DNA of 64,000 nucleotides from Chloroflexota bacterium (GTDB lineage Bacteria > Chloroflexota > Chloroflexia > Chloroflexales > Herpetosiphonaceae), in NCBI GenBank assembly GCA_020161265.1, contig JAIUOC010000009.1, positions 310,001 through 374,000 of the forward strand, written 5' to 3'. Below, one piece after another: positions 926 through 54,485 of the stretch. Within the stretch, counting starts at the first letter, position 1, and each line of letters opens with the position of its first letter. Made by a program: the position numbers and the translations under genes. The notes beneath the pieces were generated by a model that saw only the letters and a list, made by a program, of their open reading frames with translations, was not told the origin of the DNA and did no database searches.

Positions 926-940
926 GGGTCAGAGAGACGG

Positions 941-971: not shown

Positions 972-1039
972 AAGGCTCATGCTGTCCGCCAAGCATTCGA
1001 CATCTGCTATACTGACGTGGCGAATGCTTGGTGAGGATT

Positions 1040-2932: not shown

Positions 2933-2957
2933 CAATCCGCTTCAATAATGATACATT
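2929..2957 (+). promoter_or_regulatory. Sigma-70-type promoter overlapping the end of the M23 gene
   Basis: A perfect -35 TTGACA (2929-2934) overlaps the M23 stop codon. It is followed after 17 bp by TACATT (2952-2957), a 4/6 match to -10. The -10 lies inside the first dyad described in the next entry. An alternative -10, TATAAT, sits at 3006-3011 without a good -35. Confidence 0.5.
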
Positions 2958-3025
2958 ATATCAATAATCTGGTCGTGCAAAGCGCGGCCACTTTTTTGGC
3001 AATTCTATAATGATATACAGTATCA
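2949..3025. promoter_or_regulatory. Pair of matching dyads TGATA-N5-TATCA
   Basis: Two 15-bp inverted repeats with identical arms (TGATA, TATCA) and 5-bp spacers occupy 2949-2963 and 3011-3025. Flanks are also shared (TAA before, ATA after). They are 62 bp apart, close to six helical turns. The first overlaps the -10 and the second overlaps the start of the next gene. This is the layout of an operator pair; the regulator is unknown. Confidence 0.5.
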
Positions 3026-26872: not shown

Positions 26873-27658
26873 TTATGAAAGCGACTCATAGATAATGCCA
26901 CCAAGCCCCATATAATCGATGCCCTTGAGTTGATAGCGCTCAATTTCAAGGTCGGCTTGGGTCATCAAAAACGAGCCAATTTCATTCTTAAATAGGGTAT
27001 ATTCACGGGCCATGGCATGGCTGCCACTATATTGGATGGTTACAAACACGGTGGTCGTTGAAGGCAAGCGGAACATACGCACCAACAATTCGGCTTCAGT
27101 CGGCGAAACACCGCTGCGCACCAAGGTATCGGCTGATTGCGCTGTTTGGCCTTGCTCAGCCAATTGGCGTGCCATAACTAATTTTTCGCGGCTAATATCA
27201 ACATGCAAATTAACCGCTGGCGTGTTCGCCGCGTAATCGCTCAGTTGAAACACCGTTTCAATCAATCGATCAAGATTGGGCATCTGCGCGAGGTTGTGAA
27301 CTTCAGGGTTAATCACCGTATGCACAACTAAAGAATCATCGCGCACATGGCCAAACCCTTGCAGTACCACCCCATCGGCACGAGTATGATAAACCACCAG
27401 TGAGCGTTGTGGATACGCGCAACTTGCCACAACTCCAAGCAAATCTCGAACAATTAATAATTGACCATTTTCATCTACCGCCGCAGCGTTGCGAGCACGG
27501 AGCGAATGTTCAGCCTGCAACAACTCCAAAGCGCGTTGATTCTCATCGGCGGTGGTCGCTTGAACACCCATCAAAGCGGGAGCTTTCAAGAGTGCACTAA
27601 TTAACAGCAATTCACTGCGTGAAAGTGTTACTGCGACCAAGGGTTGGGGGGTTGTCAT
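26873..27658 (-). CDS. Possible EspG-like type VII secretion accessory protein
   Basis: This 261-residue soluble protein has no signal or membrane segment. Its order of elements recalls EspG-type chaperones of ESX secretion systems: VAVTLSRSELLLISALLKAP, a helix ending HSLRARNAAAVDENGQL and RDLLGVVASCAYPQRSLVVY. A second half follows, with a helix in LVRSGVSPTEAELLVRM. The match is weak and by pattern only. Context helps: it starts 11 bases after the lipoprotein gene, which follows a WXG100-lipase gene. A chaperone for the WXG100 protein is my inference; an unrelated cytosolic immunity or regulator protein is possible. Confidence 0.5.
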   Translation of the reverse strand: MTTPQPLVAVTLSRSELLLISALLKAPALMGVQATTADENQRALELLQAEHSLRARNAAAVDENGQLLIVRDLLGVVASCAYPQRSLVVYHTRADGVVLQGFGHVRDDSLVVHTVINPEVHNLAQMPNLDRLIETVFQLSDYAANTPAVNLHVDISREKLVMARQLAEQGQTAQSADTLVRSGVSPTEAELLVRMFRLPSTTTVFVTIQYSGSHAMAREYTLFKNEIGSFLMTQADLEIERYQLKGIDYMGLGGIIYESLS

Positions 27659-27669
27659 GCCCTAATCTC

Positions 27670-28314
27670 CTACGGTACAACCGCAAAGGTACTGTCAATT
27701 GCAATCGGGTTGGAATATTGATGGTCCCATTCGTGGCCCGAAGCATTGCGATCATCGACCCCACGTTGGCGCGATTCACGAGTGTTCACCGCAATCCGTT
27801 GGACCGTTGGCCATTGCGCTTGTTCATTCGGGGCGATTGGAATCACAAATGTCCGTTTATTAAGTTTACTAACTTTTAATGCTTCTAACCAACGAGTTTG
27901 ATCTGGTTCTTCACGTTCAAATTCGATCGTTGTGAGTTCACCCATAACACTATCATCAACCAAGCCAACAATCAGCCGATAGCCATCGATCTCGAATAAG
28001 GCTGTTTGCAGCGGGGCTTCGGGAAAAGTCTGAGTCAAAGGAAGCGCAAACGCCGCTGCACCAGCATTTGGCTCAAGGTAGGCAATCGTTGTTGGTTCGC
28101 CAGCCACGGTTTGAGCTCGAATCAAGCTTAAACGGCGATAGCGTGGTTTGTCACCCAACCACGGGCTGATATCAAGTGTGCCAATTGTTTGAATCGACTG
28201 TTCATCGAGGCCGTTACGCACGGCCTCGGGAACAGCACTTGATCCACATCCAAAGAGTGATGCCAACAATCCCATTGCAAGCATCCCCCACCATACTCTA
28301 CACACAACCTGCAT
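27670..28314 (-). CDS. Lipoprotein, candidate immunity partner of the WXG100-lipase
   Basis: The 214-residue protein starts with a lipoprotein signal ending ASLFGC (Cys23). The mature part is probably beta-rich, with phrases such as TIGTLDISPWLG, RLSLIRAQTVAG and PTTIAYLEP, and no enzymatic motif is seen. Its start lies 3 bases after the lipase gene stops, so the two must be translated together. In staphylococcal type VII systems a secreted lipase toxin is neutralised by a lipoprotein encoded next to it, and this pair has the same form. The role is inferred from context and topology. Confidence 0.65.
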   Translation of the reverse strand: MQVVCRVWWGMLAMGLLASLFGCGSSAVPEAVRNGLDEQSIQTIGTLDISPWLGDKPRYRRLSLIRAQTVAGEPTTIAYLEPNAGAAAFALPLTQTFPEAPLQTALFEIDGYRLIVGLVDDSVMGELTTIEFEREEPDQTRWLEALKVSKLNKRTFVIPIAPNEQAQWPTVQRIAVNTRESRQRGVDDRNASGHEWDHQYSNPIAIDSTFAVVP

Positions 28315-28317
28315 GGA

Positions 28318-29592
28318 TTACTTCAGGTATGGAGCAACTTGGGGATAGCTGTTTTTAATGATGCTAACCACATCGTTGCTCGTCCAATAGGAGTTGTGAT
28401 TGCTAATTGGGTTGCCCGCATTGGCGTTGGTCGTAAAGTAATTGATGCCAGCATCACGGGAGGCGTTATCGGCTCCAAGCACCCCTGGTACAACCAATGG
28501 CAAGGATTTAGGCGCTAAGATCCCAGTCATCAAGCCTGGAGTTAGGAAATTACGCCCTTCATCGGAGCGAATCCATGGTTGGCCAATATAATCGCCTTTG
28601 TCGCTAACGCTGAGGAATTTGGCATATTGCATCGCCCGATCAGCGTTGGCTACCGGCGATCCGAGCGTAACCACCCCAGAAACATCAACGCCCATGTTAT
28701 TTTCAAGCATTGGCGCGAGGTTACTGACAACCGCCCCACCGCCGCTATGCCCAATCAGCATGACGGTTTGGCCAGGCAATAATGGGTTACGGGCAAGGTC
28801 TTGTTGAATAAAGTTGTAGCTTTCTTGAGTATACTTGCCTTGATCTTGCATTGTATACTCTTGCACAACTTCGCTGACCCCGACTCCAGTATTAAACAAC
28901 ATTGAAGCCCCGTTGACAACCGTTGCACCAGCGCCTGTAATCCCATTAACAACTGAGGCTCCGGCTCCGGTCAGCCAATCGACGGGCGACAACCAACCAC
29001 CATGATTGGTGCCTTGCAGATTGGTGCCTTGCAAGTTGGTGGTGTAGTTGGTATTGTAAATTGCTGGCATCGCCTTGATTTGGCTAGGATCATAGCCGTG
29101 GGAAGCCAACAAGCCAGCCAGTTGCTGTGGCCCTTCGCCTGGAGTACCATCTGGCTCGCTGGCGTTAATCCCATTGACAATGTACATGCGTGGTGGTGGC
29201 AACTGATTCGCCGCCGCCGAGCCTGCTGCATTACCTGCCGCAGCGCTGAACGAAACACCGCTACCAGCGCTTGAGCTAGCTCCGCCATCGCCAAACGAGA
29301 TACCTTTAGCCGCCTCTTGTTCAGCTTGCTGAAAGACTGTGCTAATTTGTTGGGTTACCGTTTGAGCTTCCCGCAATACATTAGTGAGACGTTGCATTGT
29401 GGGAAAAATTTCCGTCTGCATTTCATTAAAAAATGCCTTTGCCGCATCACCCATCCATCCGCCATTGGCTAAACTTTCATAGCTCTGGCGAATCTGGCTG
29501 TTGATTTGATCAACTACCTCCGATTGCTTGCCAAACCGACTTGCAACTTGAGTGAGTTGGTCATACTGAGCTTGAACGATTTCAGCTCCCAT
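28318..29592 (-). CDS. WXG100-domain protein fused to an alpha/beta-hydrolase (lipase) domain
   Basis: The 424-residue protein begins with a helical hairpin of WXG100 type (residues 1-100, GGWMGDAAKAFF at 44-55 with the W-x-G turn at 46-48), the targeting module of type VII secretion. A Gly/Ser/Ala linker (101-130) leads to an alpha/beta hydrolase. The nucleophile elbow is GHSGG (Ser283), a candidate acid is Asp331 and the histidine is probably His399 in SNHNSYW. A short internal repeat, GTNLQ, occurs at 189-195. The start at 29592 follows AAGGAGT. It is probably a secreted antibacterial or phospholipid-cleaving toxin. No EccC-like ATPase is in the window, so the secretion machine is encoded elsewhere. 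Confidence 0.82.
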   Translation of the reverse strand: MGAEIVQAQYDQLTQVASRFGKQSEVVDQINSQIRQSYESLANGGWMGDAAKAFFNEMQTEIFPTMQRLTNVLREAQTVTQQISTVFQQAEQEAAKGISFGDGGASSSAGSGVSFSAAAGNAAGSAAANQLPPPRMYIVNGINASEPDGTPGEGPQQLAGLLASHGYDPSQIKAMPAIYNTNYTTNLQGTNLQGTNHGGWLSPVDWLTGAGASVVNGITGAGATVVNGASMLFNTGVGVSEVVQEYTMQDQGKYTQESYNFIQQDLARNPLLPGQTVMLIGHSGGGAVVSNLAPMLENNMGVDVSGVVTLGSPVANADRAMQYAKFLSVSDKGDYIGQPWIRSDEGRNFLTPGLMTGILAPKSLPLVVPGVLGADNASRDAGINYFTTNANAGNPISNHNSYWTSNDVVSIIKNSYPQVAPYLK

Positions 29593-34872: not shown

Positions 34873-35706
34873 CTACAAATACTCGAATTGGCTAATCCGT
34901 CGCCGCCACTCTTCCTTAATTTGGACAGTGTTTGCGCCACGACTGGTAAAGAAATCGAGAATCAAGCGGTTGAACTGCGAATTAATATCCAAGAATGGAA
35001 AGTGGGTACTATTTTCCATTGTCAGCACTTGGTGTTCAATCGCCGCAGTTTCAAACAATTGAGCATGATCGCGGGCAACAATTTGATCATTGCCACTATA
35101 AATGCCCAAAGTTGGGGTTTTGAGTGTTTCAAGGGTCGAGCGCAAGTCAGCTGCTAGCACCGAATCAAACACCCGCTGAATCACATCGCCCGAAGTAGCG
35201 TTGGTATCTTCCAGCACTTCGCGATAGGTGTCATCATCGATTTTGATATTTTTGAGCAGCTTGCTCCACGTTTCATTGGGGTTCGATTTGCCCATCAAGC
35301 GCGAAAGCGTGCTGGGCTTCACCAAGGTGCTCAACGGCTCGCCATACACGGGCATGTTCGAGGTGATCACTTTGATAAAACTATTGGGAGCTTGCGCCGC
35401 CGCCCGAATTGCCACCATGCCGCCAAGGCCATGGCCAACCAGGTTGGTGCGAACCATCCCCAATTCGCGCATAAAGGCTAAAAGTTGCTCAACATAGGCA
35501 TCGATATTGTAGGTACCGATCGATCGATCCGAATCGCCAAAACCCCAAAAATCGAGAGCATAGGCCCGAAAGCGATCGGAGACCATCTCCATCGATGGAA
35601 CCCAATAGCGCCAAGAGCCAAGCCAACTATGCAAGAAGATAATTGGCTGACCACGGCCAAAAACCTCGTAATGCACGACCCGATTTTCGATAAAAATTGC
35701 ACTCAT
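34873..35706 (-). CDS. Alpha/beta hydrolase lacking the nucleophile serine
   Basis: The 277-residue protein has a full alpha/beta-hydrolase fold: PIIFLHSWLGSWRYW (oxyanion strand), ALDFWGFGDSD, and the elbow LVGHGLGGMV. The consensus elbow is G-x-S-x-G, but position 93 is glycine (codon GGC). The other triad members appear present in GIYSGNDQIV and NSTHFPFLD. I infer loss of classical esterase activity and perhaps a binding or sensing role, by analogy with non-catalytic hydrolase-fold receptors. It is the last gene of the signalling operon and overlaps the response regulator by 4 bp. It is cytosolic, without a signal peptide. Confidence 0.85.
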   Translation of the reverse strand: MSAIFIENRVVHYEVFGRGQPIIFLHSWLGSWRYWVPSMEMVSDRFRAYALDFWGFGDSDRSIGTYNIDAYVEQLLAFMRELGMVRTNLVGHGLGGMVAIRAAAQAPNSFIKVITSNMPVYGEPLSTLVKPSTLSRLMGKSNPNETWSKLLKNIKIDDDTYREVLEDTNATSGDVIQRVFDSVLAADLRSTLETLKTPTLGIYSGNDQIVARDHAQLFETAAIEHQVLTMENSTHFPFLDINSQFNRLILDFFTSRGANTVQIKEEWRRRISQFEYL

Positions 35707-36083
35707 GCCCGCGTACTCAACAATTCGCGCACCCGACCAATGAGTGTTGCTGGGGCATAGGGCTTGAGCATATACTCAGTCGCGCCTGATTCCCAGCCTT
35801 CCTCAATTTCGGTTTTTTGCCCTTTAGCCGATAGCAAAATAATTGGTGTCGAAGCAAATTGTGGATACTTGCGCAACTCACGACATGCTTCGTAGCCAGT
35901 CATCCGTGGCATTTTAATATCAAGAACCAGCAACTCTGGAGTAACCTGAAGGGCTAGTTCAACCGCTTCTGCTCCATTATGTGCTTCGATCACCTCAAAC
36001 CCGCCAAGGCTCCGCAGGCTGAAGCTGGTCATAAACAGCACATCTGGCTCATCGTCTGCAACGAGAATTTTGATCATGCCCAT
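35703..36083 (-). CDS. Single-domain response regulator (CheY-like)
   Basis: The 126-residue receiver domain has the acidic pair in VADDEPDV (Asp10, Asp11), the phospho-acceptor Asp55 in LVLDIKMP, a Ser/Thr position in LLSAKG and the conserved Lys in MLKPYAP. There is no output domain. The ATG at 36083 follows AGGAGC. It lies 24 bases after the giant kinase and is its most likely phosphorylation target. It overlaps the alpha/beta hydrolase gene by 4 bp. Confidence 0.93.
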   Translation of the reverse strand: MGMIKILVADDEPDVLFMTSFSLRSLGGFEVIEAHNGAEAVELALQVTPELLVLDIKMPRMTGYEACRELRKYPQFASTPIILLSAKGQKTEIEEGWESGATEYMLKPYAPATLIGRVRELLSTRA

Positions 36084-36107: not shown

Positions 36108-39100
36108 CTAGACCTCATCACGTTCGCCTAAGTCGGGGCGTGGTTGCACTTCTGGTAGCGAGAAGCTGAATGTACTGCCCTCACCATAGATACTTTGCAC
36201 CCACATATCGCCATTATGCAATTCGATAAACGACTTAGCGATGGAAAGCCCTAAGCCTGTGCCGCCAACTTCATCACGTAGGGGACTATCGGCTCGATAG
36301 AATCGTTTGAACATGCTCTTTTGTTGCTCGGCTGTCAAACCGACCCCGGTATCTTTGACATCAAGCTGGATCATTTTGTCTTCGTTGATGAAGGTGCGGA
36401 TTATCACATCGCCACCAGCGTAGGTATACTTGATCGCATTCGAAACCATGTTCGTCAAGACCTGTCCAATCCGCTTACTATCATACTCGATTAATGGCAA
36501 TGTGTCGTCAAGCTCGAGTTTCAGCGTCATATTCTTCTTCTCGATCTCAAGGCCCCATGTCGCCACGATATCGCGTACCAATTGGTTGATTTGGTTCGGC
36601 GCAGTGTTCAAGACGATCTTGCCTGCTTCCAAGCGCCCAATTTCTAACAGGTCTTCGACCAAGCCCACCATGCGCATTGCATTGGTCTTGACGGTGTTCA
36701 ACATTTCGCGTTGTGGGTCGGAGAGTTGACCAACTGCACCGAGCAAGAGCAAATCGACAAAGCCGCGAATTGGGGTAAGTGGTGTGCGCAACTCGTGCGA
36801 AACCGTAGCCACAAAGTCGCGTTTAGCTCGATCGGCTTCAACTTCACGGGTGATATCGCGCAAGACCACCACAACCCCGAAGCGTGAGCTTTCTTCGCCA
36901 ACCACTGGGGCAAAGTTGGCCGCAATCGATTGGCCTGGCAATTCGATCATGCTGCGATGCACGCCTTCGGAGCGTTGCACCACCTGAATACCTTCGTGCA
37001 AACCAGCATACAGCAGCAACGAACGGCCTTCTTCGTGGAGTTCTTCTTCGTTGCGCGGAGCCGCCACCACTTGCAAGCTGTTGTGCATCACTTCCGAGCG
37101 TGGAATCCGCAGCACATCTTCGGCGGCTGGATTATACAGAATGATCTTCTCGGTTTGGTGGTCGAGCACCATAACCCCTTCCGAAACACTCTGGAGAATA
37201 GCGGCGGTCTTGCTAGCTTCTTCGCGTTGTTGCCACATCGCATCAGAGAGTCGGTCAGCCGAATCATAAACCAAGGTGTAAAGGTCGGCGTTGTGCAAGG
37301 CCGAAGAAACTTCGCCGCCAATCGTCGAAAGGAAGCGCAGGTGATCTTGGGTGAAGAAGCCAATTTCGTTGCTATAGAGCATCAACACGCCTTGCGGTGC
37401 GTCGCTCGAAAGCAAGGGCACGGCAATCACCGAGCGTACATCGTCGCCGCGACCACTTTGAGCATTCGTCCAGCGCTCATCCAACCAAACATCGGAGATC
37501 ACCACGCCTTCGTTGTGCTCGATGATCCAGTTGGCCAAGCCTGGGTGTTGGAAGCGTACTCGCGTTTCGATTGATTTCAAGCCCAATTCTTCGTTGAGCA
37601 CTGCATGACACACCAAATCTTTGGATTCGCGGTCGAGCAAGAAGACCGCCCCACGTCGGACCATCAAGGCCGAAGCCGCGAGATCAAGTGTGCGCAACAA
37701 GAGTTCATCGCGGTCGAGGGTCGTCCCAAGTTCGGTTGCAATATTGTAGAGCGCTTCGACCCGTTCCTTTTCGCCCTTAAGTTCCAAAGTCCGTTGATCA
37801 ACAATTTCTTCGAGTTCAAGGTTGAAACGGCGAATTTGATCGAACAATTGAGCATTATTGATCGCTTGGCCAATTTGGGTTGCCAAAATCATCAAGCTCG
37901 AAATTGTGCGTTCGTTGAAGGTAAATGGTTCGTCCATCCCCACGAACACCACGCCGCGCAAACCTTCGCGCAACATTGGCAAGAAGATCGAGCCACGCAT
38001 GCCGATGCTATTGACGAATGGCGCTAAGCCTTCGTCGGTGCTGGCATCGAACAAGGCCAATGGATGGCCTGAGCGCAATGGCCGCAAAATTTCCATGCTG
38101 CCAACATCAAGCTCGTTGGTATCAGGCAGTTCCAATTCCATGTGGTCGCGATTGAGCGCCAACGAGTTGGTAATTGTGTAGCCATCGCCTGCAACCACGA
38201 TAATTCCGCCGAAATCGGCCCGCGACATTTCGATTGCGCTCGAAGCACTGATCGCCATCAATTCGTCGATTTCCAAGGTACTGGCCAAGGAAACGCTGGT
38301 TTCTGAAAGCGTCGAAAGTTCGCGCACGCTTTGGCGTGATTCCGAGAAGAGCCGCGCATTTTCTAGGGCTTGGGCGGCTTGCGAGGCAATCGTGAGCAAC
38401 AATTGCACCAATTCATCGCTATAGGCATTATCCTGCTCATAGCTTTGAACCGTCATAACCCCGACAACCTTATCAGCGGCGATCAGCGGAATCCCTAGCC
38501 ATGAACGAGCCATATCGCCAACTTGATCGACCTTCATTTCGGTCATGCGTTCGGCGATATGTGGGCCTTGCAGCAACAATGGTTGGCGCTTACGAATGAC
38601 ATATTCAGTCAAGCCATTTACGCCGCGCTGTGGCATGACGTTGATTGCATGGCCATATTCGTAATACAGCGGGAAGGTCACTTCTTTATTGCGCTCATCA
38701 TACAGCGCCAGATAGAAGTTTTCGGTTTTGACCAACTTGCCAGTTTGCTCGTAAATCACCCGCAGCAAGTCGTCGAAACGCACCGTTGAACTCAAGGCTT
38801 GACCGATATTGTTCAAGGTGTTCAAGCGCTGAATCGATTGTTCGCGTTCGGAGAATAGGCGAGCATTGGCAATCGCCGCGCCTGCCTGCGCCGCCACCGT
38901 GGTGACGAAGCTCATATCATATTCAGAGAACGAATATTCTTCATAGCTCTGAATATTGATAATCCCAATTACATCAACGCCAACCACAATTGGCACAACC
39001 AGATACGATTGTTCAATCTCACCTTGGCCACCAACCCGCATGGCGCTGGTTTCCGAGGTGATTTGGGTTTGGGCATCACGATATTCGTTGGCCTCTTCCG

Positions 39101-42100
39101 AGGTATTCAGCAACAACGGCTGGCGATGCTCGATAACCCACGCTGGCACGCCAACCGACAATCGACGTGAACCAATCGTGACTGGTGCACCCCGATCATG
39201 AGCTTCGCGGAATTCCATCGAGTGGGTTTGCGGATCGTACAAGCCAATGAAGGCAGTGCTAACATCGACAATTTCGCCCAAACCAGCATACAAGCGTTCT
39301 AAGATTTCATCCAAACTAATGGTTGAGGTAATCCCTTGGCTGATGCGGTTAAGCGTATCCAATTCGCGAATCCGGCGCTCACGTTCGGTAAACAGCATGG
39401 CTTTTTGCACTGCTGCCGACGATTGGTTAGCCAATGATTCAAGGAACTGAAGTTGTGCCCGACTAAATGTGTTGGGTTGCGGGCTTTGAATGACAATCAC
39501 GCCCAACGGCTGATTGATATTCATCCCATAGGTTTGGCTACCCATGGTGATCGAAGCCGCAATCACCGATTCTGGCTCAATTGCATCGGGAATGCCCTCT
39601 AGCCGTGGCGAGAAGCGCTCATTCAATAAATCGCTGCTGCTGTTGAACATCAATGGACGTTGCTCAAACAACATCGTTTTGAGGAAGTTATTGCTCAACA
39701 CATGCGAAATCAACGAATAGGGCTGACCATTGCTAAAGCCAACCGTAGTCGAGATCATATTGGTTGGCGCATCGTAGAACACGATATAGGCATTGTCAGT
39801 ATTGTAGATTTCAGTCAAGCCTTTCAAAATTGAGCTAGCCAATTCCTCAGGCGAGAGCGTTGCAGTCATCGATTGGCTGATCGACGACAAAATTGCCGCT
39901 TCGGTTACTTGACGTTCGCGATCAGCAAACAAGCGGGCATTTTCAAGCGCGATTGCGGTTTGGCTGGCGACTGCTTGCAAGAATTGAATGGTTTCAGTGC
40001 TAAATGCCCGTTGATTTGGGCTTTGGATGGTGATAACCCCCAAAACCATATCGCCCAGCATAATCGGAATCCCGACCCACGAAGCCATCGGGGTGTCGTG
40101 GCCCAGCAAGAAACGCGAGGCATTGGCAGTTTCTTCGCTTGTGTTCAACACAATCGTGCGCCGACCGCGAATCACTCGGCTTAACACGCCTTCAGCCAAC
40201 GCTTGCGGCTCTAGCCGCTCCTCACGGCCAGCATTCATCACCACTGGGAAGGTCAGCACATTATGATCGCTGTCGTAGAGCACGATGAACGAGTAGCGCG
40301 TATCGACCACACTACTCAAACGCAGGTGCAATTGGCGCAGCAAAGTTTGTGGATCAAGCGTCGAAGTGATCGCTTGGGTCACATCATTTAATGCTTGCAG
40401 CACCGTGATTTGGCGTTCGCGCTCCACGAACAGGCGGGTATTTTCAATTGCGATTGCCGCTTGGTCGGCCAAAGCACTCAACAGCGCCGTATCATCTTCG
40501 CTGAATAATGCTCCTGTGCCCGACATCACGCTCAGCACACCTAACAATTCATTGCGATAAACAATCGGCACACCCATAAAGACCGAGAGGCCATGGTCGC
40601 GATTGAATTCAGTATATTGTGAGATGATTGATGAATTGCCATCGGTGGCGCTGGTGGTCAGTGGTTTGCGTTGCTCAGCGACTGTACCAACCAAGCCCTC
40701 GCCGCGCTTGACCCGTAAGCCTTGCACAAAATCGCTTGGCAGACCCAACGAAGCTACTGGCTGGAGTTCTTCATCGCCAGTAAACAGAATCACAGTTTCG
40801 ATATTGAGTTGGCGACCCACCAAGCGCACCAAGGTATCTAAGACTTGGGTTGGTTCGTGGATTGAGCTAAGTGCTTGACCTGCTTCCAAGAGCACCGACA
40901 ATTCACCAACTTTGCGGCTCAGCACATGGGCTTGACGCTCAGTTTCAGCAAACAAACGGGCATTTTCCAAGCCTTGCGAAATCTGGTTGGCGATGGTTTG
41001 ACAGGTTTCAGCATCGCGTTGGCTAAAATGACGGCTCTCGCCAATATGATCAAGCCCAATCGAGCCAACCACTTCGCCCTTGACGATCAGCGGAACCAAC
41101 ATCAACGCCTGAATGCCCAATTGGTTGATCGTTTCGCGGAACGATTCAGTTAATTCGTGCTCAAGCGGCTTGTTGATCACCAATGGGCGACGATGGCGCT
41201 GCATCCATGGAATTGTGCCGTTGTTGGCAACCGGAACTTCGATGCTCAGATCGCCTTTGGGGAATTCGGCGCGGGTATAGCCAACTTGGGCTTCGTAATC
41301 AAAAATCACCAAGCGAGCTTGCGAAGCATCGGTCACTTGGGCCATTTCTTCAACCGCCAAATCGTAGAGCACTTGGGTATCAAGCGTCGAGGCGGTCAGA
41401 TCAGAAACGTGATTGATCAGCGCCAAACGTTCAGCTTCAGTTGCTAGTTGCTCCAAACCATCCTGAGTTTGGCTATACAACAACACATTTTGCATCCCCA
41501 ACGTTACCTGATAGGCCACGTTGATCAGCAATTGCAAATCACGTTCATCGAACATTGCTTGCTTATAGTGTTGAAGCAGTAAAATTCCCAGTGGTTCATC
41601 ACTGCTGGTGAGCAATGGCACACCCATCAACGATTGTGAAAGCACGGTATCGGCAGATTGCACCCGTGGGTGAATATCAGGATAGGCCTTCATTTCCTCG
41701 TCAACATGCTTGAACAGCAAAGGTTGACGATGCTCCAAAATCCAAGCAGTCAGCGAGTGTGGCGTAATCGGCGTAGCTTTGGGATATTGAATAATCAAGC
41801 CACGATCGATCACAAAGCTATGGCTACGCACCGTCAAATCACTATCGAAAACGCTGAGATTGAAGATATCAATCGGCAAGAATTCACGCAGCACGTTATA
41901 CACGCCTTGCATCAATTCATCAGCGTTCAAGGTTGAGCTGGTGACTTGGCCGACGCGGCGAATCACATCCAGCTCTTTAATTTGGCGATCACGTTCGTTG
42001 AACAGCTGAACCTTTTGCACGCCCAAACTAATGTGCGAAACCACGTTGGTTAAGAAGGCGACAGTTCGCTGATCAAAGGCATTTGGCCGATAATCTTGCA

Positions 42101-45100
42101 ACGAGAGCATCCCAATCGGTGCGCCGTCGCGAGCAATAATCGGCACGCCAATCCATGAGCGTGGCGATTTATTTTTGCCCTCGATTGGATTAGCCATTGG
42201 CTGAACGCCCTTTTGTTGCAATTCAGCTTTGTTAGTTACATCGGCCAAAATCAAGGGCGCACGATTTTGCACCACCCACGCGCTTGGGCTGCCTGGGCGT
42301 GGCTTACCACGTGGCGTTCGTTCGGCTGGCACACCTTCTTGGACTGCATAGCCATCGGTAATTTGGTCGTGCTCAGCATCGTAGATCATGGTGTAGAAGA
42401 CTGGAGCTGAAGTTACTTCTTGCAAGTATTCAGCGGTCAAGCCCAGCATTTCACTCAGATCAAGTGAGGCACTCATCAACTGGCCAATTTGGCTAATTGC
42501 ATCCAACTCGCGAATTTGGCGTTCGCGGTCACCGAAGAGTCGGGCATTTTGCACCGCCAAGGCCACTTGGCTAGCGATCGTTTGCAGCAACTCAGCTTCG
42601 CGTTCGCTATAGATATTTGGCTCGTAGTGCTGAACCGAGAGCATCCCCACAGCGGTGTCATCGCGAATCTTCAGTGGCACGCCAACCCACGAGCGCACCC
42701 ATTTATCGGGGTTGCCAAAGCGCTTGATCGTATATTTACCCTCAATTTCTTGGGGCATATCACGGAAGACCAAGGGTTCAAGGGCATTGACAACATGGGC
42801 TGATGGTGAGTTGGGCAACAGTTTCTCGCGTTGCTCCTCGATGAAGAATTTGCCTTCTTCAACATTGACCCGCAGCACAATCTCGCCATGAGTTGGATCG
42901 TAGACGAAGCTATAAAAGACGTTCAATTCCAAGGTTGTGCGCAATGATTCGTAAACACCCTTGAGAATTTCGACAAAATCAAGCGTTGAATTGGTCAGGC
43001 TACCAATTTTGTTGATCAGCGCCAATTCATTCAAGCGCGATTGGGTATCGGTGTAGAGGCGCGAATTTTCAATTGCCACAGCCAATTGGTTGGCAATCGT
43101 ATCGAGCACTGCCGCATCGCGTTCGCCATAGCGCCCAGCTTCATTATGTTGCAGCGAAAGCACCCCACGCACCGTACCATCACCCAGCAACAGCGGCACG
43201 CCAATCCACGAACGCGGAACATCGGTGCTATTGCCTTCATCATTACGCGGTGGGCTATTATCCTCGTCATAATGAAATTCAGTGGTCATATCATTGAAAT
43301 ACAACGTTTTGCGCTGCTTGATGATTCGTGCCATCAACGAGCTTTCGTTAATTGGCCCATTGACCACATCGGGCATAAAGTGTTCGTCATCAATCGCCAA
43401 CGATTTGACCACACTATTGCGCTGGGTATCAAAAACTGCCAAATAGTAGGCGCGAATTGGCAGGTTTTCACGTAGCACATTGTAGACTTCACGCGCCAAA
43501 TCATTAAATTCGAGGCTAGCAGTTGCCGCACGGCTAATGCGGTTGATAATCGCCAGCTCGGCAATTTGGCGTGAACGCTGATCAAACAGCCAAGCATTTT
43601 CGATTGCAATCGCAGCTTGGTTGGCGAAAATTTCCAATGTTTCAACCGTGCGGCGGGTTGGCGCTTCGTGGGTAAACGGATCATCGACCGTCATGATCCC
43701 AATCAATTCGCGTTCGGTCGAGTAGAGCGGCACAAGCAGTTGATCGCCATCGTGCCAAGCATTCGAATCGCTGCCGCGGGTGATGTAATAGGCCCGACCA
43801 ATCCGATACTGGGGATCGAGCAAGGGGTGCACAGTTTCAATCGAAATATCTTCGCTGCGCAATTGTTCCAAATCAGAGAGCGCAATCCCTGCCCCAGCGG
43901 CAGTGCGCATAATCGTCGGATGCACCGGATCGATTAGATTGAACAAGACCATGCGATAGCCAGCGGCTTCGGTCACACTAAAGGCGATTTGCTCAAGCAG
44001 ATTGCTCAGCTCCATATCGGCCCGTAGCGCGTTACCGATTTCCAGCACTTCATTTAAGAGGCTAGCGCGTTGTTGCAACAATTCACGTTGCTTAACTTGC
44101 TCCTCATAGTGTTGGGCATTACCAATCGCCAAAGCGGCTTGGTCGGCCACAGCTCGGACGAAATCGAGCGCAGCGTGATCGAAGGAATAACCCTTAGCAT
44201 CGCCGGCAATAATTGCCCCAGCCACCCGATTTTCATACAAAATTGGAGCCATGAGCAACGAACGAATTTCGCCCCAGGCAATATTCGCTTCTAAGACGGT
44301 TACATCATCATAAATCAGGGCTTCGGCGCGTTGCATTGGCGCACTCAGCAAGCCATTATTCAGCAATGGTAGCGCCAACACGCCAGCAGCTTCGGATGAG
44401 TTGTAGCCAGTTTGCGCGATAACTTGCAGCGATTCATCCTCGTTATGTAGCACCACAATCCCATAGCCACAACCTGTAGCTTGGGTGATTTCGGTCAACA
44501 TCGCGGGCAGCAATTGCTCAAGCTGCAAGGTCGAGGTTAGTTCACGGCTAATGCGTTGAAGTGCCAAAAGCTCGCGTACCCGTTCGCGTAACACCTCGTC
44601 GGTGGCTTCGTAGCGTTGAACATTGCGCAACGCTTGGGCTGCTTGCGAAGAAATAATATTCAACAAGCGCTCATCTTCAGCATCAAACCGCCCAACCGTG
44701 CTTGAACCAAGCTCCAACGTCCCAATCAATTGATCGCCAATCAACATTGGCACGCCCAAGAATGAGCGGAAAGCCAAGCCGCTTTCAGTTTCGTGCGGAC
44801 GAATTGGCTTAACAATTTTTTGACGTTGCAAATCGTCGATGCGCAAGGTTGAGCGATGCCGCGCCAGCCAACCAGTCAAGCCTTGATCGATGCCATATGA
44901 ACCACCTTCGCTAGCATAGTGCTGGCGAGTGCGTGGGGTGGCAAATTGGCTATTCAAAACCTGATTTTGCGGATCGTAGAGACAAATTTCAAGGTCGATA
45001 TTATCAAAGAGCTGGACAACGCTTTCGCCGATGCTTTCGAGCGCAACTTGCAGGCTCACGCCTGAGGTCAATTTGGCGCTCAGCGATTGCAGCACTGAAA

Positions 45101-46562
45101 GCTCAGCATTGCGGCGGCGCTCATCGTTTAATAAGCGGGTATTGCCAATCGCTGTGGCAGCTTGAGCCGCCAAGGTTTGGGCCAAGGTAATTTCGCCAGG
45201 GTTGAAGGTACGAGTTTTCGAGGTGGTGGTACACAACAACGTCCCAATTACCCGCTCCTTGAGCAGCATCGGCAAGCCCAAGGCGCTGCGAATGCCACGG
45301 GCCTTGAGCCATGAACGTTGAGCATTAATCCGTGGGTCAGTATCAATATCGACAACCACGACCGGTTGTTGCGTATCAAATGATAATTTCAAAATCGATT
45401 CAGGCCGCAACTCATAGGTTGCCCCAATCGAGAGATCGAGCGAATTAGCAGCATCGTCGTCAGTTGCTTGGGCCACCAACTCACAGAGCTTGCGTCGATC
45501 ATCCCATAGCAACAGCAAACATTGCTCAACCCCAAGGGCCAGCAAAACATTTTCAGTTAATCGATTGAGAATATGGCTAAGATCAAGTGAGGAGCCAACC
45601 GTCAAGCTATTTTCATACAGCAAATACAATTCGCGCGAGCGTTGACGTTGGGCATCGAAGAGTTTAGCTGTGCGCATCGCCAACGAAGCTTGGGCGGCGA
45701 ATGATTCAAGCAACGCCAAATCAGCATTTTGAAAACCGCGATCAGGCTCGATATGCACCAACACTAAGACCCCAATAATCGCCTCGTCGGCGCGGAGCGG
45801 TGCGGCCATCACAGCGGTGAAGTTAATGCCCTCGGGCAGATTATCGTATTTTTCTTTCGCTTGGGCATAATCATTGACCAGCATCGGCTTGCCACTTTGG
45901 GCCACCTTGCCAGCCACACCCTTGCCAACCTGAATTCGGGCACCATTCCAATTGGCCGGAAATTGCACAACTTGGCGCAACTCCAAATATTGCTGGTTGG
46001 AATCGGTCATGTAGACCCCACCGCCAGCAGCGCCCAGTAATTCGGTTGCTTGAGTGACCAACGTTTGCAAGAAATCGTCGGCATTGAGTTGCTGAGCCAA
46101 ACCTTGCAACGATTCAGTCATGGCCGCGACCGTGCGTTCACGGCGGGCAAATTCCTCTTGCAAGGCCACGCCCTGCCACAAACTGGTTAGTTGAGCGACC
46201 AAAACCGTAAGTGGTTCAGGCTCAATCGTGACTGGAGCGACCAAAACGCCAGGCACCTCGGCAGTGCCAATCTCAAACATCTGCCAACCATCGGGTAGGC
46301 GAACCTCACTTCCACCATTTAAAACGCGAGCAGGCAACAACCGATTGGTTGCGCGTTTATTCATGCCCCATGCAGTCAACAACGAACGTTGTTGACCAAG
46401 GCGTAAGATCGCCCCTTGAGCAAACATACCGCTTTGCTTGAGCAAATCGGCACAGCGCTGCGCGAACGTTGGCAAATCAGGCGATTGCTCACGGGCGAGG
46501 TGAGCAATGCCTGTTAACACGTGCCAAATTGCGGTGGAAGGAGGAGAGATTTTCATGGGCAT
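36108..46562 (-). CDS. Giant cytosolic histidine kinase with about 17 tandem GAF domains
   Basis: This 3484-residue protein occupies 10.5 kb. After a degenerate N-terminal segment (residues 1-140) I count 17 GAF modules of about 185 residues. Each ends in a helix of form QAxxAIxNAxLF followed by a connecting coiled coil with LNxIS-type words. Modules 6, 7, 8 and 15 share RSWxGxP. A PAS-like domain (EGVMVLDHQTEKIILYN) follows, then HisKA with VATVSHELRTPLTPIRGF and a HATPase with LTNMVSNAIKYT, DTGVGLT and GGTGLGLS. There is no membrane segment. GAF domains bind small ligands or cyclic nucleotides, so it may integrate many signals or act as a long dimeric rod. It is flanked by two response regulators in one operon. 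Confidence 0.95.
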   Translation of the reverse strand: MPMKISPPSTAIWHVLTGIAHLAREQSPDLPTFAQRCADLLKQSGMFAQGAILRLGQQRSLLTAWGMNKRATNRLLPARVLNGGSEVRLPDGWQMFEIGTAEVPGVLVAPVTIEPEPLTVLVAQLTSLWQGVALQEEFARRERTVAAMTESLQGLAQQLNADDFLQTLVTQATELLGAAGGGVYMTDSNQQYLELRQVVQFPANWNGARIQVGKGVAGKVAQSGKPMLVNDYAQAKEKYDNLPEGINFTAVMAAPLRADEAIIGVLVLVHIEPDRGFQNADLALLESFAAQASLAMRTAKLFDAQRQRSRELYLLYENSLTVGSSLDLSHILNRLTENVLLALGVEQCLLLLWDDRRKLCELVAQATDDDAANSLDLSIGATYELRPESILKLSFDTQQPVVVVDIDTDPRINAQRSWLKARGIRSALGLPMLLKERVIGTLLCTTTSKTRTFNPGEITLAQTLAAQAATAIGNTRLLNDERRRNAELSVLQSLSAKLTSGVSLQVALESIGESVVQLFDNIDLEICLYDPQNQVLNSQFATPRTRQHYASEGGSYGIDQGLTGWLARHRSTLRIDDLQRQKIVKPIRPHETESGLAFRSFLGVPMLIGDQLIGTLELGSSTVGRFDAEDERLLNIISSQAAQALRNVQRYEATDEVLRERVRELLALQRISRELTSTLQLEQLLPAMLTEITQATGCGYGIVVLHNEDESLQVIAQTGYNSSEAAGVLALPLLNNGLLSAPMQRAEALIYDDVTVLEANIAWGEIRSLLMAPILYENRVAGAIIAGDAKGYSFDHAALDFVRAVADQAALAIGNAQHYEEQVKQRELLQQRASLLNEVLEIGNALRADMELSNLLEQIAFSVTEAAGYRMVLFNLIDPVHPTIMRTAAGAGIALSDLEQLRSEDISIETVHPLLDPQYRIGRAYYITRGSDSNAWHDGDQLLVPLYSTERELIGIMTVDDPFTHEAPTRRTVETLEIFANQAAIAIENAWLFDQRSRQIAELAIINRISRAATASLEFNDLAREVYNVLRENLPIRAYYLAVFDTQRNSVVKSLAIDDEHFMPDVVNGPINESSLMARIIKQRKTLYFNDMTTEFHYDEDNSPPRNDEGNSTDVPRSWIGVPLLLGDGTVRGVLSLQHNEAGRYGERDAAVLDTIANQLAVAIENSRLYTDTQSRLNELALINKIGSLTNSTLDFVEILKGVYESLRTTLELNVFYSFVYDPTHGEIVLRVNVEEGKFFIEEQREKLLPNSPSAHVVNALEPLVFRDMPQEIEGKYTIKRFGNPDKWVRSWVGVPLKIRDDTAVGMLSVQHYEPNIYSEREAELLQTIASQVALAVQNARLFGDRERQIRELDAISQIGQLMSASLDLSEMLGLTAEYLQEVTSAPVFYTMIYDAEHDQITDGYAVQEGVPAERTPRGKPRPGSPSAWVVQNRAPLILADVTNKAELQQKGVQPMANPIEGKNKSPRSWIGVPIIARDGAPIGMLSLQDYRPNAFDQRTVAFLTNVVSHISLGVQKVQLFNERDRQIKELDVIRRVGQVTSSTLNADELMQGVYNVLREFLPIDIFNLSVFDSDLTVRSHSFVIDRGLIIQYPKATPITPHSLTAWILEHRQPLLFKHVDEEMKAYPDIHPRVQSADTVLSQSLMGVPLLTSSDEPLGILLLQHYKQAMFDERDLQLLINVAYQVTLGMQNVLLYSQTQDGLEQLATEAERLALINHVSDLTASTLDTQVLYDLAVEEMAQVTDASQARLVIFDYEAQVGYTRAEFPKGDLSIEVPVANNGTIPWMQRHRRPLVINKPLEHELTESFRETINQLGIQALMLVPLIVKGEVVGSIGLDHIGESRHFSQRDAETCQTIANQISQGLENARLFAETERQAHVLSRKVGELSVLLEAGQALSSIHEPTQVLDTLVRLVGRQLNIETVILFTGDEELQPVASLGLPSDFVQGLRVKRGEGLVGTVAEQRKPLTTSATDGNSSIISQYTEFNRDHGLSVFMGVPIVYRNELLGVLSVMSGTGALFSEDDTALLSALADQAAIAIENTRLFVERERQITVLQALNDVTQAITSTLDPQTLLRQLHLRLSSVVDTRYSFIVLYDSDHNVLTFPVVMNAGREERLEPQALAEGVLSRVIRGRRTIVLNTSEETANASRFLLGHDTPMASWVGIPIMLGDMVLGVITIQSPNQRAFSTETIQFLQAVASQTAIALENARLFADRERQVTEAAILSSISQSMTATLSPEELASSILKGLTEIYNTDNAYIVFYDAPTNMISTTVGFSNGQPYSLISHVLSNNFLKTMLFEQRPLMFNSSSDLLNERFSPRLEGIPDAIEPESVIAASITMGSQTYGMNINQPLGVIVIQSPQPNTFSRAQLQFLESLANQSSAAVQKAMLFTERERRIRELDTLNRISQGITSTISLDEILERLYAGLGEIVDVSTAFIGLYDPQTHSMEFREAHDRGAPVTIGSRRLSVGVPAWVIEHRQPLLLNTSEEANEYRDAQTQITSETSAMRVGGQGEIEQSYLVVPIVVGVDVIGIINIQSYEEYSFSEYDMSFVTTVAAQAGAAIANARLFSEREQSIQRLNTLNNIGQALSSTVRFDDLLRVIYEQTGKLVKTENFYLALYDERNKEVTFPLYYEYGHAINVMPQRGVNGLTEYVIRKRQPLLLQGPHIAERMTEMKVDQVGDMARSWLGIPLIAADKVVGVMTVQSYEQDNAYSDELVQLLLTIASQAAQALENARLFSESRQSVRELSTLSETSVSLASTLEIDELMAISASSAIEMSRADFGGIIVVAGDGYTITNSLALNRDHMELELPDTNELDVGSMEILRPLRSGHPLALFDASTDEGLAPFVNSIGMRGSIFLPMLREGLRGVVFVGMDEPFTFNERTISSLMILATQIGQAINNAQLFDQIRRFNLELEEIVDQRTLELKGEKERVEALYNIATELGTTLDRDELLLRTLDLAASALMVRRGAVFLLDRESKDLVCHAVLNEELGLKSIETRVRFQHPGLANWIIEHNEGVVISDVWLDERWTNAQSGRGDDVRSVIAVPLLSSDAPQGVLMLYSNEIGFFTQDHLRFLSTIGGEVSSALHNADLYTLVYDSADRLSDAMWQQREEASKTAAILQSVSEGVMVLDHQTEKIILYNPAAEDVLRIPRSEVMHNSLQVVAAPRNEEELHEEGRSLLLYAGLHEGIQVVQRSEGVHRSMIELPGQSIAANFAPVVGEESSRFGVVVVLRDITREVEADRAKRDFVATVSHELRTPLTPIRGFVDLLLLGAVGQLSDPQREMLNTVKTNAMRMVGLVEDLLEIGRLEAGKIVLNTAPNQINQLVRDIVATWGLEIEKKNMTLKLELDDTLPLIEYDSKRIGQVLTNMVSNAIKYTYAGGDVIIRTFINEDKMIQLDVKDTGVGLTAEQQKSMFKRFYRADSPLRDEVGGTGLGLSIAKSFIELHNGDMWVQSIYGEGSTFSFSLPEVQPRPDLGERDEV

Positions 46563-46596: not shown

Positions 46597-47532
46597 TTAG
46601 CGGCCAAATTTCACAGCGCTACGAACTGAACCATCTTGCAGGTTTGGCAATGGGCGCACACTTTCAGCCGTTTCGCTGAGTTCACGGATATCGTAGAATG
46701 GCCCATCGTTGCTATCGAGCACCCCGATTGAAACCGTCATCAGTGGTTCTTGGCGTTCAGTACCATCGGCATTTTTGGCCAAAATATAGCCACGTTTACG
46801 GTCAGGATAGCTATAGTGCAAGCCAATTTCTTGATCAAAGCGTTCGGCGATGCGATCGACAATTGCTTTGGCGCGTTCAGGCATCGACGTAATCAAGAAA
46901 TCTGGCCCAGTGACCAATTGACCAATAAACTCCTCTTGGCCACCCAACTCACTGACGACTTCGTTGATCAACAATGCGCCAAACTTCAGCACATCCTCGC
47001 CGACGACCGAGCCATAGACTTGGGTAAAGGTATCGAAGCCATTGATATGCACGGTTGCTAGCGTCCAAATTTCGGCTGAGAGCAAACGGCGGAGTTCTTC
47101 GTTAATCAATTCGGCGGTTGGCAGGCCAGTCACCGGGTGGGTGCGGCTTTTTTCGCGAGCCAAGGCTAAGTTATTGCGCACCCGCATATGGACTTCTTCG
47201 ATATCGAAGGGCTTGACGATATAGTCATTGGCTTGGACTTCACCGAGGCCAATCCCTTTATCGCTTTTTTCACCACGGGCGGTCAAGAAAATGATTGGAA
47301 TATGCTTTGTACGGGCATTGGCACGCAGTGCTTTTCCAATATCATACCCGGTCATATCGGGCAAATTCACATCAAGCAAGGCCAAATGCGGCGGCGTGCG
47401 TTTCACAAGATCGAGCGCTACCTGCCCGCGCATCGCGGTCATCACTTCATAACCTTGCGAGGTGAAGTAAATTTTGAGCAAGCCAGAGATATCGGCTTGG
47501 TCTTCGACGACTAAGATGCGTTCTTTGCTCAC
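46597..47532 (-). CDS. Response regulator with degenerate GGDEF domain
   Basis: The receiver domain (residues 1-120) has VVEDQADI, phospho-acceptor Asp54 in ALLDVNLP and the Lys in IVKPFD. After a short linker, HPVTGLPTAELINEELRRLL opens a diguanylate cyclase fold. The active loop that should read RxGGDEF is QLVTGPDFLIT, so catalysis is not expected. I chose a GTG start at 47532 because GGAGG lies 6 bases upstream; an ATG at 47544 or 47547 has that site inside the coding frame. A product of 311 residues results. It is probably a signal receiver or a GTP-sensing effector working with the giant kinase encoded just downstream. Confidence 0.85.
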   Translation of the reverse strand: MSKERILVVEDQADISGLLKIYFTSQGYEVMTAMRGQVALDLVKRTPPHLALLDVNLPDMTGYDIGKALRANARTKHIPIIFLTARGEKSDKGIGLGEVQANDYIVKPFDIEEVHMRVRNNLALAREKSRTHPVTGLPTAELINEELRRLLSAEIWTLATVHINGFDTFTQVYGSVVGEDVLKFGALLINEVVSELGGQEEFIGQLVTGPDFLITSMPERAKAIVDRIAERFDQEIGLHYSYPDRKRGYILAKNADGTERQEPLMTVSIGVLDSNDGPFYDIRELSETAESVRPLPNLQDGSVRSAVKFGR

Positions 47533-47544
47533 AGTATCCTCCAT

Positions 47545-47565
47545 CATCGCACGCCGCGTGCGATG
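47545..47565. other. Perfect hairpin before the response regulator start
   Basis: A 9-bp perfect inverted repeat (CATCGCACG/CGTGCGATG, loop of 3) lies between the two operon genes, directly before the GGAGG site. It has no T-run. It might protect mRNA ends or tune translation. Confidence 0.5.
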
Positions 47566-47570: not shown

Positions 47571-48869
47571 TTAATCACGGAATTGTTCTGCTGGGTACTC
47601 ATCTGCGACGCGATCGTTAACTGGAATACGTTGAACGCGCGGATCGCGGTCGGGATAGAAAACTGGTGGGCGCGTATAAATACCACTCGAAACATTTTTA
47701 GGAATAACCGAATGGTCATCGCCATAAATCAAGACCGTGCCTGATTCAATATTACGGGCTGGGTAAATGACAAAGCCTGAGCCAATTTTACAATTATGGC
47801 CAATTGCCGAGCCGATGACTGGCAGACCAACTTCTTCCAAGCGCCCGCGATGGAGCGTCTTGATTGGCTTGCCCAGCAGATCGAAATCGGTACAGGTATT
47901 GCCAGCCCCGATAAAGGTATTACGGCCAACGACGCATAACTGCAAACAGGTATTTTGCGCCACCATCGAATTTTCCATCAAGACAGTCATGAACAGAGCA
48001 GCCCGGAATGGTAAATAACAACGATCGCTGACTACGCTAAGCATCACTTGAGAGCCTTGCATAATCGTCACGTTATTACCGATCAAGCTATTCGTAATCA
48101 CCACTCCAGCGCCAATATTCACGTTGTTACCGATCTCAGTTGGCCCTTGAATAATCGCCGAAGGATCGATTGAGCAGTTCTTGCCAATCTTGACCACCGG
48201 AGATGATGAAAGAAAGTGCTTACGTTCGATGAACGAGCGAAAGCCAATCTTCAACTTCAAACGCCAACTTGCGGCAACTTCTTGCTCGAGCTTCCGACCC
48301 CATGCAAACACCCCGAGCGGAGAGTTTGTCATGAAAATATGGACCCAGCTTTCGATTGAACAAAACGCACGAATTGGCACCTGGAATACCAAATCCCCTT
48401 GGTTGGGCGCCATATAGCTTGGAATATGGTAGTAGCCCATCTCCATGGCATTGGTATCGATCACCAGCGGTTGTGGATTCGGGACAACGCCGCGAGGGAA
48501 ATAGTAGAGGTCGGCGATAAAATGGTTGCCATGCTTGCGAATACCCTCTTGTAATCGCAAAGCATGGGCCGTAATCATCGCATCATCAGCAGCAAAAGCC
48601 ACTTGGCAAGGTTGCCCAGTGGCGCGTGCCTCAGCGATAAACGTCTCAATGAAATCGCGGTTGAAATAGAGATTATCTTTATGCACCAAGAGTTCATCAC
48701 TACTTGGTGAAATTTCAGACCAATCGTCTACTTCCGCAACACTTTGGCAGTGGCGTGCAAGCAGATCACGGTGTAGCAGCCACAGCGGCTTATTGAGAAT
48801 CCGCAAATCACGCGCTGGTTCTCCAAAGGGAGCGATAAGCGTAGGATCGCGGAGAACAATCCGTTTCAT
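47571..48869 (-). CDS. Left-handed beta-helix (hexapeptide repeat) transferase-like protein
   Basis: The 432-residue protein resembles nucleotidyl/acyl-transferase fusions of the GlmU type. The first 200 residues contain RIVLRDPTLIAPFGEPAR and a region with HKDNLYFNRDF and AFAADDAMITAHAL but no clear GxGTRMxP nucleotide motif. From about 245 the hexapeptide repeats begin: SIDPSAIIQGPTEIGNNVNIG, GAGVVITNSLIGNNVTI, then a second block FIGAGNTCTDFD and SAIGHNCKIGSGFV. The ATG at 48869 is preferred over one at 48926 since family-like sequence starts there. It is the first gene of the signalling operon. Its substrate is unknown. Confidence 0.72.
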   Translation of the reverse strand: MKRIVLRDPTLIAPFGEPARDLRILNKPLWLLHRDLLARHCQSVAEVDDWSEISPSSDELLVHKDNLYFNRDFIETFIAEARATGQPCQVAFAADDAMITAHALRLQEGIRKHGNHFIADLYYFPRGVVPNPQPLVIDTNAMEMGYYHIPSYMAPNQGDLVFQVPIRAFCSIESWVHIFMTNSPLGVFAWGRKLEQEVAASWRLKLKIGFRSFIERKHFLSSSPVVKIGKNCSIDPSAIIQGPTEIGNNVNIGAGVVITNSLIGNNVTIMQGSQVMLSVVSDRCYLPFRAALFMTVLMENSMVAQNTCLQLCVVGRNTFIGAGNTCTDFDLLGKPIKTLHRGRLEEVGLPVIGSAIGHNCKIGSGFVIYPARNIESGTVLIYGDDHSVIPKNVSSGIYTRPPVFYPDRDPRVQRIPVNDRVADEYPAEQFRD

Positions 48870-49033
48870 AACGAGTCCCTGCAGCTCAAGACGTTTCGAC
48901 CACCGAAACCACCTGGTATCTACCATGTACTATACTCGCATTTGCACGAATATGGGAATCTAGCAGATTACAGTTGGATGTCTGTGAGCGTCCTGCTCGT
49001 CGCCAGCGCACAGATTGGCAGACTTACATCGTC

Positions 49034-49684
49034 CTAATCTATTGGCTCCTTGTCAATGGCAAACGCACAATATGGATCGCCATTGCGTGGACTTGCAACT
49101 TGTTCGACCTTGAAGTTATGACCGCCGGTCACCCACGTCAAGGCTTCTTCGATAATCCCTTGCGCCAAATAGAAGATCGGGGTGCTATTGCCGCGTCCCC
49201 AGAACACTGGCGATTTATCAATGTAATAGAGGAAACGACCTTTTTGATCTTCCACCCGACTCGGCTGATCGCTGAAGCGGTCAAACGTTTGTGCTACCGC
49301 ATTCAACACGATCTTCATTTTCATGGTCATGGGCATCAGTTTGAGCGCAAGGTCGGCCATCCCCAATAGTGGGCCAAATTCTTTCAACCCAAGACTGAAC
49401 GCATACCGTCCGGCCCGCAGTTCCATCCCACGCGCACCCCGTGGACCGAACATTGTTTCGGTGGCTTCGCTGATCGTTGCCAGATCAAAGAACGAAAATT
49501 CGCGTTTCAAGTCGTTGGGCGGATAGTTATTGACGAGGTGTTTCATCCCTGCCATATTTAGCAGCGCATTGACCCCCGTGCGGCCCATAACATCTTCCAA
49601 ACTGAGAAGATACAATCGTGCGATTTTATTGGGGTAGAACAGGCGCTCAAGCTCGTCAGACGTATTGGTGCGCTCTTCTGCCAT
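49034..49684 (-). CDS. V4R (4-vinyl reductase-like) domain protein
   Basis: The 216-residue protein has the fold of small-molecule sensing V4R/heme-NO-binding-like domains. A helical N-terminal half contains YLLSLEDVMGRTGVNALL and LKREFSFFDLATISEA. The second half has GRYAFSLGLKEFGPLLG and ends with DPYCAFAIDK, matching the V4R ending with a cysteine near the C-terminus. The start follows AAGGAG. It has its own promoter framed by an inverted repeat. The ligand is unknown; it is not itself expected to reduce a vinyl group. Confidence 0.72.
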   Translation of the reverse strand: MAEERTNTSDELERLFYPNKIARLYLLSLEDVMGRTGVNALLNMAGMKHLVNNYPPNDLKREFSFFDLATISEATETMFGPRGARGMELRAGRYAFSLGLKEFGPLLGMADLALKLMPMTMKMKIVLNAVAQTFDRFSDQPSRVEDQKGRFLYYIDKSPVFWGRGNSTPIFYLAQGIIEEALTWVTGGHNFKVEQVASPRNGDPYCAFAIDKEPID

Positions 49685-54017: not shown

Positions 54018-54485
54018 CTAGCGCATCAATTTCAAGCCAAAGCGTCCAGCCAAGCCCAACACCACCAAACTCACACCCAGCCACAACCAAGTATTTGAGC
54101 TTTGGGGAGCACTGGTTACTGGCAAAGCAACAGGCACAGGTTTGACCACCCCAGTATCAGGCAAGGTCACCGGTGGCACTGGCGTAGCAGTCGCCGGAAT
54201 TGGCGTGGCAGTTGGCAAGGCAGTTGCGGTTGGTTCAACGGTTGCCGTTGGTAAAGCAGTTGCGGTTGGCTCAAGAGTTGGCTCAGCCGTTGCACCTGGC
54301 ACTGCTGTTACTGGTGCCCGAGTTGCCGTTGGCAACGGTGTTTCTGTCGGCAGCGGCGTGGGCGTTAACGTTGGGCGGGGTGGTTGAGCCAGGCTACTAG
54401 CAGCCGCAGGCTGGAGCAAGACCAAACTAAGCACTCCTAGCAGGGCGGCAGCAAACAAGCCAGAGAAACGACGAAACATAAGCAA
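54018..54485 (-). CDS. Surface stalk protein with LPDTG motif and C-terminal anchor
   Basis: The 155-residue protein has a signal peptide (residues 1-34, cut near LAQ). A Pro/Thr stalk of TPTPLPTE- and EPTATALPTAT-type repeats (38-106) follows, then LPDTG at 108-112, a linker, a membrane helix (about 133-147) and a basic tail ending in Arg. This is the outline of a sortase-processed wall protein, although the 20-residue gap between LPDTG and the helix is longer than usual. No sortase is in the window. It may simply be a membrane-anchored spacer. It is first in the operon with the P450 and uvrA. Confidence 0.7.
   Translation of the reverse strand: MLMFRRFSGLFAAALLGVLSLVLLQPAAASSLAQPPRPTLTPTPLPTETPLPTATRAPVTAVPGATAEPTLEPTATALPTATVEPTATALPTATPIPATATPVPPVTLPDTGVVKPVPVALPVTSAPQSSNTWLWLGVSLVVLGLAGRFGLKLMR

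Follow-up and report, generated by a model that had tools for sequence, protein, structure and literature searches.

A conserved Chloroflexota gene cassette around a 17-GAF histidine kinase with phase-conserved helical linkers

How a single histidine kinase could make use of some 17 tandem GAF domains is the question raised by a gene on the minus strand (36108..46562) of the window, a stretch of 64,000 nucleotides from a Chloroflexota contig. Counted from the first ATG, the gene has 3484 codons; in three sister genomes codon 1 reads ACG, so that Met3, at ~46556, is probably the conserved and true start. An earlier note, which left the strand unstated, had described a giant protein with about 17 GAFs and one PAS-HisKA-HATPase unit, and this architecture is confirmed by Pfam, segmentation and HMM. 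Pfam recognizes 16 GAF_2 and 16 GAF stretches followed by PAS (PF00989; residues 3120-3237; 36852..37205), HisKA (residues 3246-3314) and HATPase_c (residues 3361-3471), the latter two making up the catalytic core (residues 3246-3471; 36150..36827). Manual segmentation and an array-specific HMM built from the family resolve 17 full GAF modules of 167-188 aa each, with helical linkers between them (residues ~149-3091; 37290..46118); modules 1-9 end at residues 298, 474, 647, 815, 989, 1166, 1339, 1517 and 1692, and modules 10-17 at residues 1867, 2041, 2208, 2387, 2566, 2735, 2903 and 3091. Residues 1-146 (46125..46562) match no Pfam family and are predicted by AF2 to fold as a short α-β-β-α-β-β-α unit, which makes 17 plus one degenerate GAF-like unit the best count. 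The H, N, G1, F and G2 boxes are conserved across 61 kinase sequences, placing the protein among HisKA-type kinases, and its 17 GAFs with long connecting helices place it among tandem-GAF proteins, which have at least two. NCBIfam matches (NifA, WalK, etc.) do not reach the cut-off and reflect nothing beyond shared domains. The kinase is the longest frame among the 70 HisKA matches of its own genome (the runner-up has 1901 aa), and no other cassette kinase examined exceeds it (see below); the 3677-residue frame of genome G007, likewise with 17 GAFs, is a stop-to-stop length.

An open reading frame of this size could reflect an assembly collapse or chimera, the doubt that the earlier note itself had raised. 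A stop-to-stop frame of the same length, 3487 residues, with 17 GAFs and in gap-free alignment, is shared by six Herpetosiphon genomes, one of which has a chromosome of 6,346,587 bp, the length published for the H. aurantiacus genome finished by Sanger sequencing (PMC2253699; PMC3368417). Additionally, pairwise identity between modules of the kinase is only 13-36%, and collapse is implausible because no two modules share more than 36%. Assembly collapse was rejected on these two grounds, and the probability that an artefact or chimera explains the gene is negligible. In every module, dN/dS between Herpetosiphon species lies between 0.004 and 0.12, being lowest in GAF 17 (0.004-0.014) and about as low in the distal modules as in the kinase core. 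Judged by these ratios, all modules are under strong purifying selection; dN/dS gives no separation of expandable from position-specific modules (see below).

The absence of a membrane segment, claimed previously, also stands. A hydropathy scan revealed no convincing membrane-spanning segment: the strongest hydrophobic 19-mer (residues 2519-2537, mean KD 2.1) lies inside GAF 14 in predicted β-strands, and the hydrophobic peaks correspond to GAF core strands, so that a transmembrane sensor kinase was rejected. As for ligands, no GAF module matches the NKFDE motif of cyclic-nucleotide GAFs, Pfam detects no phytochrome or PHY family, and none of the 8 cysteines in the 3484 residues is recognized by inspection as a bilin site; with so few cysteines and no NKFDE, bilin or cyclic-nucleotide GAFs are unsupported. 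Conserved GAF residues are located mainly at helix ends and in core strands. The kinase is a genuine, conserved, unusually long soluble GAF histidine kinase, that is, a protein of an already known kind.

The similarity of some modules to each other, including an RSWxGxP motif in several of them (found here in modules 6, 7, 8 and 15), had suggested growth by internal duplication. A tree built from 138 modules of 12 kinases, complemented by reciprocal best hits, supports such growth. Modules 6-9 (block A, residues 990-1692; 41487..43595) and 12-15 (block B, residues 2042-2735; 38358..40439) fall into a single clade of 42 modules (support 100/98), within which modules 12 and 13 are sisters (100/85). 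Neighbouring modules are more alike than chance predicts (mean identity 24.6% vs 21.6%; permutation p = 0.0004), and the wider trend of identity with distance is weak (Spearman -0.13, p = 0.09). Modules 2, 3, 4, 5, 10, 11, 16 and 17 have position-specific, 1:1 counterparts in other families of the order; modules 3, 4, 5 and 17 are among those that also group with Anaerolineae modules, and GAF 17 is present in every kinase on the tree. The duplications are old, since all 17 modules recur in a member of the same family that belongs to a different genus, and for the same reason a recent repeat expansion was rejected. In Chloroflexus-type kinases, modules 16 and 17 are separated by a further module type, absent from Herpetosiphon. 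Collectively, the comparison of module sequences points to a history in which both growth by duplication and loss are seen.

Whether each GAF binds a ligand or the array is a long signalling rod had been left open, and the linkers bear on this choice. AF2 models of residues 1-815 (mean pLDDT 78.5, pTM 0.45) and 2388-3484 (mean pLDDT 76.5, pTM 0.35) have pTM values at which the relative placement of domains is unreliable and only the helices are reliable. In these models, single helices of 45-52 residues run from one GAF to the next (279-323, 455-499, 628-676, ~2547-2592 and ~2716-2761) and from GAF 17 into PAS. Were such helices in phase, changes in linker length would be expected to come in helical steps, and coiled coils are known to accommodate insertions as four-residue stutters and seven-residue steps (PMC6798134). 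Linker length, taken as the distance between fixed HMM anchors, was determined for 602 linkers in 69 proteins, which represent far fewer independent events, as linker lengths are inherited. Deviations from the consensus were 0 (343 linkers), 7 (114), 4 (54), 25 (39) or 18 (21) residues, more rarely 42 (13), 39 (2) or another value (16). In total, 586 of the 602 equal 0 or 4 modulo 7, a proportion that is still 97% when each distinct linker profile is counted once, whereas an intradomain loop used as a control in 638 modules is near uniform modulo 7 (64-104 per class). The last linker exceeds the consensus by 18, 25 or 39 residues in all 63 proteins complete at this point; these values, found in different lineages, are always 4 modulo 7 and differ in steps of 7, with at least about five changes of class by inspection. 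Taken with the near-uniform control, the linker lengths indicate a helical rod of conserved register, and their heptad periodicity assigns the protein to the coiled-coil-coupled kinases, in which coupling is heptad-dependent (PMC6798134). A linker phase kept phylum-wide favours a signal-transmitting rod, in which individual GAFs may or may not bind ligands.

The kinase does not stand alone, a circumstance that the earlier note had not seen. It is preceded by RR1 (46597..47547), with a receiver and a degenerate GGDEF-like domain, and followed after 24 bp by the single-domain response regulator RR2 (35703..36083) and by an α/β-hydrolase-fold protein without a nucleophile serine (GHGLGG; 34873..35706). 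All four genes lie on the minus strand, separated by 34, 24 and -4 bp, an arrangement that suggests an operon; a conserved neighbour encoding a left-handed β-helix (hexapeptide-repeat) protein, LbH (47571..48926, same strand), lies 23 bp before RR1. With RR1 as the search handle, most of the order-level relatives examined proved to have a poly-GAF kinase directly downstream of it, among them named assemblies of Chloroflexus, Chloroploca, Oscillochloris, Viridilinea and Roseiflexus; the pairing also occurs in Anaerolineae. From Chloroflexia into Anaerolineae the conserved order is [LbH]-RR1-poly-GAF kinase-(RR2)-α/β hydrolase; many Chloroflexia lack RR2 and have the hydrolase gene directly after the kinase. 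Cassette kinases complete at both ends contain from 3 to 17 GAFs. In Herpetosiphonaceae bacterium KatS3mg057 (L095/L046) the kinase is split into three overlapping frames of 1510, 786 and 596 aa, most likely by frameshifts in the metagenome assembly, and at locus L209 (G070:C237) three GAF-containing ORFs in a row come after RR1, with 2, 13 and at least 3 GAFs; they may represent a poly-GAF kinase that was duplicated or split. A literature search of open-licence papers returned no published description of the kinase or the cassette.

Two of the partners have lost the motifs of the enzymes they resemble. RR1 keeps the phospho-acceptor Asp and the Lys of its receiver, and GG(D/E)EF is lost in all 111 aligned sequences; the copy in the window reads TGPDF at this position and scores below the PF00990 cut-off. 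Likewise, at the nucleophile position of the hydrolase, 84 aligned copies (some genomes being counted in two collections) have Gly in 76 cases, Ala in 4, Thr in 2, Asp in 1 and Ser in 1, and the His is retained in 84/84, so that the intact Ser-Asp-His triad of the RsbQ type is not present. These losses led to the rejection of both enzymatic readings, diguanylate cyclase activity for RR1 and serine esterase activity for the hydrolase; as far as the alignments reach, the losses are almost phylum-wide. Cofactor-free dioxygenases use the His/Asp of the α/β-hydrolase fold for nucleophile-independent chemistry, and by analogy it is possible that the retained His/Asp do so here. RR1 being no standard diguanylate cyclase and the hydrolase no standard serine hydrolase, both probably act by binding.

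Several other genes of the window deserve mention. A protein 94-100% conserved in close relatives, with a weak V4R-like match (E 0.04), is encoded at 49034-49684, often upstream of the LbH gene, and a UvrA paralogue, which adjoins the cassette in Chloroflexus loci too, shares 58 bp with a cytochrome P450 gene (49855-54014). The gene at 54018-54485 encodes a small predicted surface protein, rich in Pro and Thr, that has an LPDTG motif, a C-terminal hydrophobic stretch and no Pfam match. A second large kinase of 1064 aa, a GAF-PAS-HisKA-HATPase hybrid with two C-terminal receivers, occupies 57033-60604 and is followed by a single-domain receiver. At 28318-29592, an N-terminal WXG100 domain is fused to a C-terminal α/β-hydrolase (PGAP1/lipase-like) domain; next come two proteins to which Pfam gives no match (27670-28314 and 26873-27658), and the whole is possibly a secreted WXG100-fused lipase locus.

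Taken together, the kinase is probably a multi-input, coiled-coil-coupled integrator. Beyond the features observed directly, we infer that this cytoplasmic protein presumably forms a homodimer, its 17 GAFs being mounted on a near-continuous parallel helical spine whose helical phase would stay fixed along the array. The input would come from ligands or partner proteins that bind to certain GAFs, and would travel as twist or register shifts down the spine to the lone PAS-HisKA-HATPase unit; this would autophosphorylate and pass phosphate to the co-encoded receivers of RR1 and RR2. RR1 would then serve as an effector or adaptor through binding, and the pseudo-hydrolase as a ligand receptor docking on the kinase. 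Eight modules keep their positions throughout the order, and blocks 6-9 and 12-15 have expanded through duplication. Since module number varies from 3 to 17 with the same partners, many modules cannot be essential to the core output. More tentatively, and with less than even confidence, we propose that the whole is an undescribed phylum-wide cassette, in which a phase-locked rod of 3-17 modules acts as an expandable integrator with an intact kinase and two pseudo-enzymes (a response regulator whose GGDEF domain is dead and a hydrolase-fold receptor without nucleophile), signals entering and leaving by binding alone.

Other readings explain part of the same evidence. The conserved identity and order of the eight position-specific modules, together with purifying selection on every module, would suit an array in which most of the 17 GAFs bind distinct small molecules and the kinase computes a combined output; yet NKFDE is absent, the scarcity of cysteines makes bilin attachment at most rare, conservation concentrates at helix ends and core strands, and module count is free to vary, which leaves this reading unlikely. 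Variation in length with constant partners and the maintained helical phase could also be accounted for if the GAFs were mainly structural, setting distance or providing surfaces for docking, while sensing fell to one or two modules close to the kinase; GAF 17, ubiquitous on the tree and the most constrained of the array, would be a candidate. Nevertheless, position-specific conservation of at least eight modules exceeds the need of a spacer and the distal modules are about as constrained as the kinase core, so that we regard this option as rather improbable. A neutral ratchet, enlarging the array by duplication without functional gain, might have produced the two blocks of related modules and the gains and losses between families, but it is very hard to reconcile with a length unchanged in six Herpetosiphon genomes and with purifying selection on the duplicated modules, and we give it little credence.

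The cassette matters since work on coiled-coil linker signalling has usually dealt with proteins carrying one sensor or two. Of the new facts, the most useful are the phase-conserved linkers, the 3-17 length series and the two motif-dead partners. The cassette offers a natural series of one kinase with the same partners, in which the reach of a conformational signal along a helical spine and the summing of inputs become testable. The co-conserved pseudo-enzymes point to a cassette common to many Chloroflexota, a phylum with little-studied signalling.

Foldseek places the array nearest to the tandem-GAF cyclase CyaB2, PDE5A/PDE2A and phytochromes, and the C-terminal part nearest to WalK and HK853-like kinases. 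Tandem-GAF cyclase, PDE and phytochrome structures are dimeric. CyaB2 (1ykd, a cyanobacterial adenylyl cyclase), PDE2A and PDE5A, the best matches, also have long helices joining their GAFs; however, they contain two GAFs instead of 17, drive another output and differ in NKFDE, which the kinase lacks. Bacteriophytochrome and cyanobacteriochrome kinases are likewise soluble and GAF-containing, with a helical spine and heptad periodicity of linkers (PMC6798134), whereas here there is no recognized bilin Cys site, no PHY domain and a far larger number of GAFs. YF1 and related coiled-coil PAS/LOV kinases share the dependence on linker length in sevens and the PAS-HisKA-HATPase output, but carry no more than two sensors and are either engineered or, if natural, short. 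Among the partners, the hydrolase recalls RsbQ-RsbP, in which an α/β-hydrolase-fold protein is co-encoded with a cytoplasmic sensor and RsbQ requires its catalytic triad (PMC3183031); in the cassette, by contrast, the nucleophile is lost and the sensor is a GAF array with a PAS-kinase rather than a PAS-phosphatase. Finally, RR1 resembles REC-GGDEF regulators of the PleD/WspR type in having a receiver followed by a GGDEF-like domain, and departs from them in the motif that all its aligned homologues have lost.
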